From Flavobacteriales bacterium (GTDB lineage Bacteria > Bacteroidota > Bacteroidia > Flavobacteriales_D > Sanyastnellaceae): a stretch of 54,545 nt of DNA. The notes below the pieces were generated by a model. That model searched no databases. It had not been told where the DNA came from and worked only from the letters and a program-made list of their open reading frames with translations. This document shows, piece after piece, positions 24,586 to 26,500 of the stretch. The position numbers and the translations under genes were made by a program. The stretch spans positions 1 to 54,545 of the forward strand of contig JAPKCA010000003.1 in the NCBI GenBank assembly GCA_028823145.1, in the 5' to 3' direction. How positions within the stretch are numbered: position 1 is the first letter of the stretch; every line of letters begins with the position of its first letter.

Positions 24586-24610
24586 TACTCTCGGAAATAA
24601 TTACAAAAAA

Positions 24611-24649
24611 GGGCAGTTCCGGAATCAACCGGAACTGCCCTTTTTATTT
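24611..24649. terminator. Strong bidirectional rho-independent terminator
   Basis: A perfect 12-bp stem (GGGCAGTTCCGG / CCGGAACTGCCC) with a 6-nt loop, 25 nt after the metalloprotease stop. It is followed on the plus strand by TTTTTATTTC and flanked on the other side by AAAAAA, so a U-tract also exists for transcripts coming from the minus strand. It thus serves the metalloprotease gene and the opposing SRPBCC pseudogene. Confidence 0.92.
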
Positions 24650-24678: not shown

Positions 24679-24993
24679 TTAATCCACAAGCCGCGCACCA
24701 GAGAAAATTTGTTCAAGTGCCAACTCCCGAAAAGAAAATACACCGCGCACCTTCCGATGAACAAACCCGCCAAACACGTCTCCAATCTTACCCAAAGGCA
24801 ATGCATAGTGCAAAACATCTTCCATCAAAATGCTGCTATGCAACAAAATACGATTCTCTTTCTTCGTGTGTTATTTCAGTAACTAAATCCATGGTGATTC
24901 CCCATAGCGGCTTGATTTTATACTAAAGAATACCCCTGATTCCTTTGGGCTTATAGGCAACCATTGTTTGGTTTGGATCCGGTGCAATTGCAT
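24679..24993 (-). pseudogene. Decayed SRPBCC-family (ligand-binding, START-like) gene
   Basis: Three minus-strand fragments in different frames line up in order with the ~150-aa SRPBCC proteins I know from Bacteroidota. Fragment one starts at ATG 24993: MQLHRIQTKQWLPIS ... VFFS, the family N-terminus. After a frame change, fragment two reads YKIKPLWGITMDLVTEITH ... YFV, the central strands, ending in TAG. After another frame change, fragment three reads MEDVLHYALPLGKIGDVFGG to a TAA at 24679, the C-terminal strands and helix. About 30-35 residues are missing at the first junction and about 20 at the second. This is inference from remembered family sequence; no ORF of the track covers it. It shares the bidirectional terminator at 24611. 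Confidence 0.75.
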
Positions 24994-25051: not shown

Positions 25052-25092
25052 AAATAAAAAAGTGAAGCATCTGCCGTTGCAGATGCTTCACT
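25052..25092 (-). terminator. Rho-independent terminator of the small RNA candidate
   Basis: A perfect 14-bp inverted repeat (AGTGAAGCATCTGC / GCAGATGCTTCACT) with a 4-nt loop at 25061-25092. On the minus strand the stem is followed directly by TTTTTATTTC. On the plus strand it is followed by ACGATTCAC with no U-tract, so it works in the minus direction. Confidence 0.88.
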
Positions 25093-25136
25093 ACGATTCA
25101 CAACTAGGTCCTCCAAGAACAAATTGTTCATGACCT
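25056..25136 (-). ncRNA. Candidate small structured RNA with its own promoter and terminator
   Basis: The minus strand carries a complete promoter (TTTG-N19-TATATTTG) whose predicted start is about 25136. It is followed by a foldable ~45-nt part and then a perfect terminator hairpin. The 5' part folds as TAGGTC (25137-25132) pairing with GACCTA (25110-25105), enclosing a second perfect hairpin GAACAA/TTGTTC with a 1-nt centre. The predicted transcript is ~80 nt and has no ORF. It could be a trans-acting sRNA or, less likely, an attenuated leader of the decayed SRPBCC gene 60 nt downstream. No known family is recognised. Confidence 0.55.
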
Positions 25137-25141
25137 AAAAT

Positions 25142-25172
25142 CAAATATAATCAGTTTGACTACATATTCAAA
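25142..25172 (-). promoter_or_regulatory. Consensus promoter of the small RNA candidate
   Basis: On the minus strand TTTG (25172-25169), 19 nt, then TATATTTG (25149-25142). Both boxes match the Bacteroidota -33/-7 consensus exactly, making this the best promoter in the window. The predicted start falls at the first base pair of the RNA's 5' stem. Confidence 0.7.
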
Positions 25173-25262
25173 TAATTCATCGTTTTTTATTGAGCCCCCA
25201 TCGGCATTCAGGCGCTTTAAATACTCTCCTATAACACCCAACAATGATTGATGCTCGGACAT

Positions 25263-25270
25263 TATATTTG
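25263..25270 (+). promoter_or_regulatory. Candidate -7 box of the LysM gene
   Basis: TATATTTG on the plus strand is an exact TAnnTTTG match and ends 6 nt before the ATG at 25277. It implies a leaderless or nearly leaderless mRNA. No clear -33 element at 19 nt. Confidence 0.5.
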
Positions 25271-25276
25271 ACGTGC

Positions 25277-26500
25277 ATGTCCTCCAAGACTCGTATTGCC
25301 CTTTTACATCTCTGCTCTGTGATGATTTTTTCATTGCAGAATGCACCCCTGTCCGCTCAATCAGTCGTCAATGAATGGTCAGAAATGATTTCCAATCGGG
25401 TGCAACGTGCCGACTTGATCGCGTTTGAAGAGTGCCAGCCACAGTGGTTGGTACCCAACTTAAAACCGAAATTAAGATCAACGGTTCCCGAAATGGATCC
25501 GTTGGAATTGGCTTTGCAAGCTTGGACCACTGACTTGGAGTTGGAAAACGAATGCGTCCAAGCCTTGATCTCGAATGGGATGGAACGGTGGCAAATCCTT
25601 CAATTGTTGAGAGGGTTGTATGGAATTGATATCGAATTGGCCCTTTCCGAAGAGGATGTTCCTCCATCGTTTCAGTGGCTGCCCATTCTACTCTCCGGAT
25701 ATGACCATGCTTTTGAGGGGACCTCTGAAAAAAAAGGTCTGTGGCACCTTTCTGTTGAAGACAGTGAGAAATTCGGTTTGCACCTGAACGAAATGACCGA
25801 TGACCGGATGCTTGCCTTCGAAGCAACTGCTGCTGCTACTGAAAAAATCAGACGTCTATCTCGGCGCTTTCCCCAATCGCCAGAAAGAACCTTGGTCGCA
25901 TATGTCAAGGGCATGGCGTTCGCGACGCGATGGTCAGGAAAACCGGGGTTCGATCGGGATCTAGACCAATGGTTGACCCTATACCGTGTGGTTGCAAGGT
26001 TGATGGTTAATATAGAGTCGACCCCTTTCGATATGGCTTGGGGACAATGCTTGGCCCAATGGGAACCCATAGCCTACCCAGGTCGAATTCATCGCGAAGC
26101 ACTTTTCAATGTTTTGGGTATGACTCCAACCATTCAGCATGAATTGCTCCCTTGGTGGACCGGTGAAAAACTATCCGAACTCGAATTTGACAACTACGCA
26201 CCCCTATTACCGGCGCGTTGGGCGCTCTTATGGAACAATCGAATAGATCAATTATCGGCTTGGACAGCAGGTTCCGAGCTCACGGTCAATGACAGTGAAT
26301 CGCCAAACTATCCTGTCCAAACACCTCTTACAGAAGCCTCATACGATCCCTGCATCCTTTATGAAGTAAAGGCAGGTGATACGTTGTGGAATATTTCGCA
26401 AAGACACAAAGGCACGACTCCTGAAAACTTGGCCGAAATCAACAACATTGTGGACTACATCCGCATTGGCCAAATCATCTGCATTCCAAAAGCGGAATGA
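25277..26500 (+). CDS. Exported LysM-domain protein
   Basis: A 407-aa protein with a signal peptide (MSSKTRIALLHLCSVMIFSL ... LSAQS). I trimmed the listed start because the promoter box lies between it and this ATG. The large middle part (residues ~30-350) is helical, with conserved-looking Trp/Pro but no family I can name; it is not a clear lytic transglycosylase. The C-terminus is one LysM domain (YEVKAGDTLWNISQRHKG ... IRIGQIICIPK), which binds N-acetylglucosamine in peptidoglycan. The stop overlaps the next gene by 4 nt, linking it to the SGNH/MBOAT cassette and suggesting an envelope-anchored partner of that system. Confidence 0.82.
   Translation: MSSKTRIALLHLCSVMIFSLQNAPLSAQSVVNEWSEMISNRVQRADLIAFEECQPQWLVPNLKPKLRSTVPEMDPLELALQAWTTDLELENECVQALISNGMERWQILQLLRGLYGIDIELALSEEDVPPSFQWLPILLSGYDHAFEGTSEKKGLWHLSVEDSEKFGLHLNEMTDDRMLAFEATAAATEKIRRLSRRFPQSPERTLVAYVKGMAFATRWSGKPGFDRDLDQWLTLYRVVARLMVNIESTPFDMAWGQCLAQWEPIAYPGRIHREALFNVLGMTPTIQHELLPWWTGEKLSELEFDNYAPLLPARWALLWNNRIDQLSAWTAGSELTVNDSESPNYPVQTPLTEASYDPCILYEVKAGDTLWNISQRHKGTTPENLAEINNIVDYIRIGQIICIPKAE

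Follow-up and report, generated by a model that had tools for sequence, protein, structure and literature searches.

On the minus strand of the window, the whole 54,545-nt stretch of contig JAPKCA010000003.1 (Flavobacteriales bacterium) analysed here, a unit of about 80 nt is predicted to be an independent small RNA (sRNA) gene of a new family, whose product would act in trans, independently of Hfq, by base-pairing through its core; we put the probability of this reading at roughly 60%. By comparison with relatives, the unit is a structured gene bounded by its own promoter and terminator, within which the core is invariant and predicted to be unpaired. The positions of its elements and of the neighboring genes are listed in Table 1.

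Table 1. Elements of the predicted sRNA gene and its neighbors in the window
Feature	Position	Strand	Basis or remark
Small RNA gene, predicted transcript ~80 nt	25055..25137	-	Sharp-edged conserved block; homologues in 4 genera
-33 promoter element TTTG	25169..25172	-	Sequence; TTG kept in homologues
-7 box TATATTTG	25142..25149	-	Matches Bacteroidota sigma-A consensus TAnnTTTG
5' hairpin, outer stem TAGGTC/GACCTA, inner stem GAACA/TGTTC	25105..25137	-	Fold and paired changes
Single-stranded core GUUGUGAAUCGUA, proposed seed	25092..25104	-	Identical in 45 distinct homologues (partly by construction of the search pattern)
Intrinsic terminator hairpin, 14 bp, loop AACG	25061..25092	-	Fold and 7 covarying pairs
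Invariant loop stretch GCAACGGC	25080-25073	-	Inside terminator
T-tract TTTTTT	25060-25055	-	Directly after terminator hairpin
Divergent LysM-domain gene	25244..26500	+	Pfam LysM 3e-13; context only
Decayed SRPBCC-like gene, outside the RNA, downstream	24682..24993	-	tblastn fragments, two frames with stops

The folding energy of the region gave a z-score of -4.8, and none of 200 shuffled sequences folded equally well. The predicted 5' hairpin has the layout TAGGTC-AT-GAACA-ATT-TGTTC-TTGGAG-GACCTA. Of the two nested perfect stems given in the preliminary description, the outer one stands as drawn, but the inner one, given as 6 bp (GAACAA/TTGTTC), is a stem of 5 bp closing a 3-nt loop, because 6 bp would leave a loop of only 1 nt. 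The perfect 14-bp terminator followed by a U-tract was found as described, and so was the single-stranded link between the two hairpins, formed by the core GTTGTGAATCGTA, for which the mean unpaired probability was 0.83-0.98 at positions 1-12 and 0.50 at the last position.

The promoter TTTG-N19-TATATTTG spans positions 25172-25142 of the minus strand. It had been called the best in the window, and it is indeed the single perfect match to TTTG-N19-TAnnTTTG in the whole window, the 3' part of which is the sigma-A consensus of Bacteroidota (PMC9723704; PMC7366714). When one mismatch at most was allowed, eight matches were found against 6.6 expected, and the match in the window is by itself weak evidence. 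The promoter is taken as real because the TAnnTT box is kept in 43 of 44 homologues. About 20 nt 5' of this box the homologues carry a TTG, the two T residues of which are more than 90% conserved (93-95% at the equivalent position in 43 homologues). If the -7 box occupies -12 to -5, the placement used in PMC9723704, the predicted transcription start is about 25137, the base of the 5' hairpin.

BLAST search with a 101-nt query identified the unit in 20 of the 21 other genomes of the genus (g1), with 86-93% identity over the full length, while the protein of the divergent LysM gene in the same genomes is merely 35-45% identical. Within the genus, column identity is 0.91-1.0 from -10 to +49 relative to the start of the core, 0.74 just before -10, and about 0.35-0.45 outside the unit; the conservation thus ends sharply on both sides. 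In three more genera of the family, g3, g9, and g10, the same query matched over the core and the terminator. Scans with the pattern (299 genomes of the order) and with a covariance model (114 genomes of the family) placed the RNA in these four genera only, usually as a single copy. Among public named genomes, a total of 47 records or contigs carry it, all from uncultured Flavobacteriales-type MAGs, two of which are filed as Crocinitomicaceae. No viral contig carried the RNA, and a viral origin was dropped. In the sequences compared, the unit is conserved among relatives far more than chance would allow.

The core GTTGTGAATCGTA and the loop stretch GCAACGGC did not differ among the 45 distinct copies compared, an invariance that is partly by construction, since the homologue pattern demanded both elements. 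BLAST and the covariance model, neither of which demanded core or loop, turned up nothing beyond close variants (e.g. GCAACGGT in G212 and G216). Some other matches were set aside: those inspected among the R1 matches in genera g8 and g12 and among the second matches (e.g. in G015) were terminators without the core, and a match in G028 was core-like without a terminator.

Compensatory changes were found in both hairpins when syntenic intergenic regions of relatives were compared, a check that had been proposed for this unit. Among 21 sequences from g1 and g9, nine of the 23 base pairs have changed on both sides and 96.9% of the cells remain paired; none of 500 shuffles reached this number of double changes, and sliding of the partners abolished the signal. 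The inner stem of the 5' hairpin shows changes on both sides at five of its six pairs, and with all 45 sequences seven of 13 terminator pairs covary. In genus g10 the sequence of the 5' hairpin is wholly replaced and the hairpin is kept. The main proposal of the preliminary description, a small RNA gene that possibly acts in trans, gains support from this syntenic conservation and from the compensatory changes in the stems. Several features of an independent sRNA gene are found together: a conserved promoter of its own, a covarying terminator of its own, a conserved RNA structure with compensatory changes, and no reading frame that is kept.

That the region is conserved for encoding a small peptide is exceedingly improbable. 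Several copies do hold an ATG frame, but this short frame is out of register in the genome of the window and stopped early in relatives, so that the claim of no ORF holds in substance; moreover, the changes in the stems are compensatory, and the invariant block is predicted to be unpaired RNA. Protein coding was dropped on the ground that the frames are not kept.

Two side observations concern the homologues outside the genus. In at least four g3 genomes (G262, G065, G252, and G166; L170-L173 at 1001-1050), another element was found that is built alike, from a 5' hairpin, a GGTTAAGTTTAGTTGTTAGTTAG stretch, and a terminator whose loop is GCAACGGC (once GCAGCGGC); it has no match in Rfam and may be a paralogous sRNA. 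In the g10 homologues (L059-L061, L093-L135) the 5' hairpin is a different one, likewise conserved, that contains the motif GACAGGCACTT. The T-tract after their last hairpin is mostly short, so termination may be weaker in this genus.

The unit lies, as first described, between the LysM gene and an SRPBCC pseudogene, the remnants of which run from 24993 to 24682 on the minus strand in two frames with stops. The SRPBCC-like gene is intact in most of the genus; Pfam and NCBIfam give it no name, and its sole match in PDB is weak (3oh8, E 0.01). In g1 and g3 it lies 3' of the RNA in the same orientation, with about 45-63 nt between the T-tract and its ATG; in g10 an RNaseH-like or other gene takes this place instead, and in g9 no gene follows downstream on the strand of the RNA. 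The upstream neighbor is the divergent LysM gene in g1 and g9 versus a hybrid histidine kinase, so named from its sequence, in g3 and g10. The pseudogene of the window is separated from the metalloprotease gene by a 17-bp inverted repeat at 24606-24645 with T-runs on both sides, apparently a two-way terminator.

This arrangement bears on the second proposal of the preliminary description, that the unit is a relic attenuator of the decayed gene. The RNA would then be the 5' part of the SRPBCC-like transcript, a cis-acting leader with a terminator that gates the gene, surviving as a relic in the window. The short distance to the ATG in g1 and g3, often without a TAnnTTTG box in between, the short T-tracts of the g10 terminators, and the complementarity of GUUG in the core to CAAC in the loop agree with such a leader, which we nevertheless hold to be unlikely. 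The RNA is hard to read as an SRPBCC attenuator because it is kept whole where the downstream gene has been replaced (g10), is dead (the window), or is missing (g9), and no single downstream gene accompanies it throughout. In addition, a terminator-free fold costs at least 8 (8.4) kcal/mol and 15 kcal/mol on average among the homologues folded, and the only alternative to the terminator is the weak GUUG/CAAC pairing rather than a strong antiterminator. Furthermore, no aptamer-like sequence is conserved in the 5' hairpin from one genus to another, and in several relatives an nAACNTTTG-like box past the terminator is a possible, if weak, promoter of the downstream gene itself.

Hfq was absent from all 22 genomes of the genus, in a search for which the positive controls worked, and an sRNA dependent on Hfq of the host is thus not indicated in any of these 22 genomes. 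We infer that the independent sRNA gene is transcribed and that its RNA, released by its own terminator, would act in trans without Hfq and independently of a chaperone, the core GUUGUGAAUC pairing with target mRNAs. The best candidate target in the genus is the mRNA of a TPR lipoprotein, with a leader of about 24 nt that carries GAUUCACRA 3-9 nt before the start codon; a duplex of 9-11 bp formed there would keep the ribosome off and reduce translation. In other genera the same core would serve other targets.

The candidate target encodes a protein of 570 aa with TPR repeats, classified as a lipoprotein from its signal sequence. It was found in a screen of 1.56 Mb of G001 and 0.75 Mb of G015, in which two of 276 ortholog pairs, the lipoprotein being one, had 9-bp matches to the core in both genomes. 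With 1000 shuffled cores the mean was 0.33 ortholog pairs, and 4.8% of the shuffled cores reached at least two, and the target is therefore statistically suggestive only. When orthologue starts were compared with independently found positions of the pattern, the complement GATTCACRA was located 3-9 nt before the lipoprotein start in 17 of the 18 genomes compared within the genus (G000-G004, G006, G007, G009, G011-G015, G017, and G019-G021), the genome of the window (G000) included; G005 lacks the site before this gene, and the count leaves out G008 and G018 as well as G010 and G016, the assemblies of which show no lipoprotein orthologue. In the genome of the window, an exact 11-nt complement, ACGATTCACAA, lies at C144:9978-9988, with 8 nt between it and the lipoprotein start (9997).

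The leaders read GATTCACAATAAAGC-ATG in G001 and GATTCACGAAAT-ATG in G015, and the A-to-G change between the two sites keeps a G-U pair. In both genomes the leader follows, over about 24 nt, a TAGTTTTG box, which we read as the lipoprotein promoter, and GATTCACAA or GATTCACGA precedes the ATG. The spacer between site and ATG varies in sequence and length (TAAAGC, TTAAGC, CATACAGT, CACAGT, and others) and the 9-mer is constant; the site pattern has just 5-25 matches per genome of the genus. The leader is partly conserved outside the site too, as seen between G001 and G015. In the genus, the sRNA probably lowers the expression of this cell-envelope lipoprotein gene, its candidate target.

Outside the genus, the lipoprotein gene lacks the strict site in G029 (g9), in four genomes of g3, and in three of g10, all of which carry the RNA, and likewise in the RNA-free family members G022, G024, G025, G032, and G061, and also in G063, in a comparison that leaves out G148 and G034. 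Since the site is absent from these g9, g3, and g10 genomes, the lipoprotein target cannot be the reason why the core is invariant from genus to genus; the predicted pairing is a good candidate for the genus and no explanation for the whole family.

Invariance of 13 nt over four genera, for which no shared target was found, could also point to a protein-binding RNA, whose core and AACG loop would bind a protein, for instance of the RRM type, or sequester it, rather than pair with mRNA. The presence of two invariant unpaired elements would fit such a role, and so would the rarity of AACG loops elsewhere (one or two of 50 tetraloop terminators in the genome of one relative). The site complementary to the core, kept in the lipoprotein leader in 17 of the 18 genomes compared within the genus, argues against it, and we regard protein binding as improbable. 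Within the base-pairing reading, the seed might be held reversibly by the terminator loop of the same molecule, GUUG of the core pairing with CAAC in GCAACGGC as a pseudoknot latch that works without a chaperone and is displaced by a matching mRNA. Such a latch is quite doubtful; if true, it would explain why core and terminator loop are fixed amid drift elsewhere.

Genome-wide searches for further targets gave no clear set. Exact complements of the 11-mer core number about 1-2 per genome of the genus beyond the RNA itself, without excess, and at the 1210 start regions of G001 the duplexes were no better in energy than those of shuffled cores. In these start regions CGATTC was seen directly before the ATG five times against 0.6 expected, and, counting G-U pairs, CGATTCATG is complementary to the core throughout. 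Several members of the CGATTC-ATG set look like overlapping ends of upstream operon genes, and a match in the infB leader, AAATTCGCAAC, is possibly a promoter box; neither was retained.

The RNA had been proposed to be novel, and this is supported: neither the window nor the divergent homologues gave an Rfam 15 match at the gathering score, only weak matches and no family appeared at a relaxed threshold, and no earlier description of the RNA was found. The core sequence had no match in a full-text literature library, which is partial and in which sequences are rarely printed in the text. The RNA is thus a new sRNA family of an already known kind. Few trans-acting sRNAs have been characterized in Bacteroidota, and none was found described for these uncultured, mostly marine members. 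Since the family has a directly searchable sequence signature, a seed that does not vary, and a candidate target known by name, riboregulation without Hfq in this group becomes testable from existing metatranscriptomes.

Like 6S RNA, Flavo-1, SRP RNA, and other Rfam families, this is a small structured RNA of Flavobacteria, but it matches none of them in Rfam, and 6S RNA is a rod whereas the RNA described here is differently shaped. The envelope sRNAs of enterobacteria of the MicA, RybB, and MicL type act through a short antisense block at the mRNA starts of outer-membrane proteins or lipoproteins and depend on Hfq. The predicted RNA would act alike on its predicted target, but their Hfq is absent here, and we know of no sequence relation between them. 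The Rfp sRNAs of Flavobacterium psychrophilum, such as Rfp18, are also independent, structured sRNAs of Flavobacteria, from a genome with TAnnTTTG promoters, and some are conserved within a genus (PMC9723704); compared by description, the present RNA differs in being confined to one family among 299 genomes of the order. There is a likeness in kind, too, to GibS of Bacteroides thetaiotaomicron, reported in 2020 as the first trans-encoded sRNA of Bacteroidota with identified targets (PMC7366714): both are intergenic, with an own promoter, a conserved single-stranded seed, targets at start-codon regions (here predicted), and no Hfq. By the same kind of comparison, of descriptions rather than sequences, the seed of GibS is located in its 5' portion and that of the present RNA between two hairpins, and GibS has been studied experimentally, whereas the RNA described here is known from its sequence.
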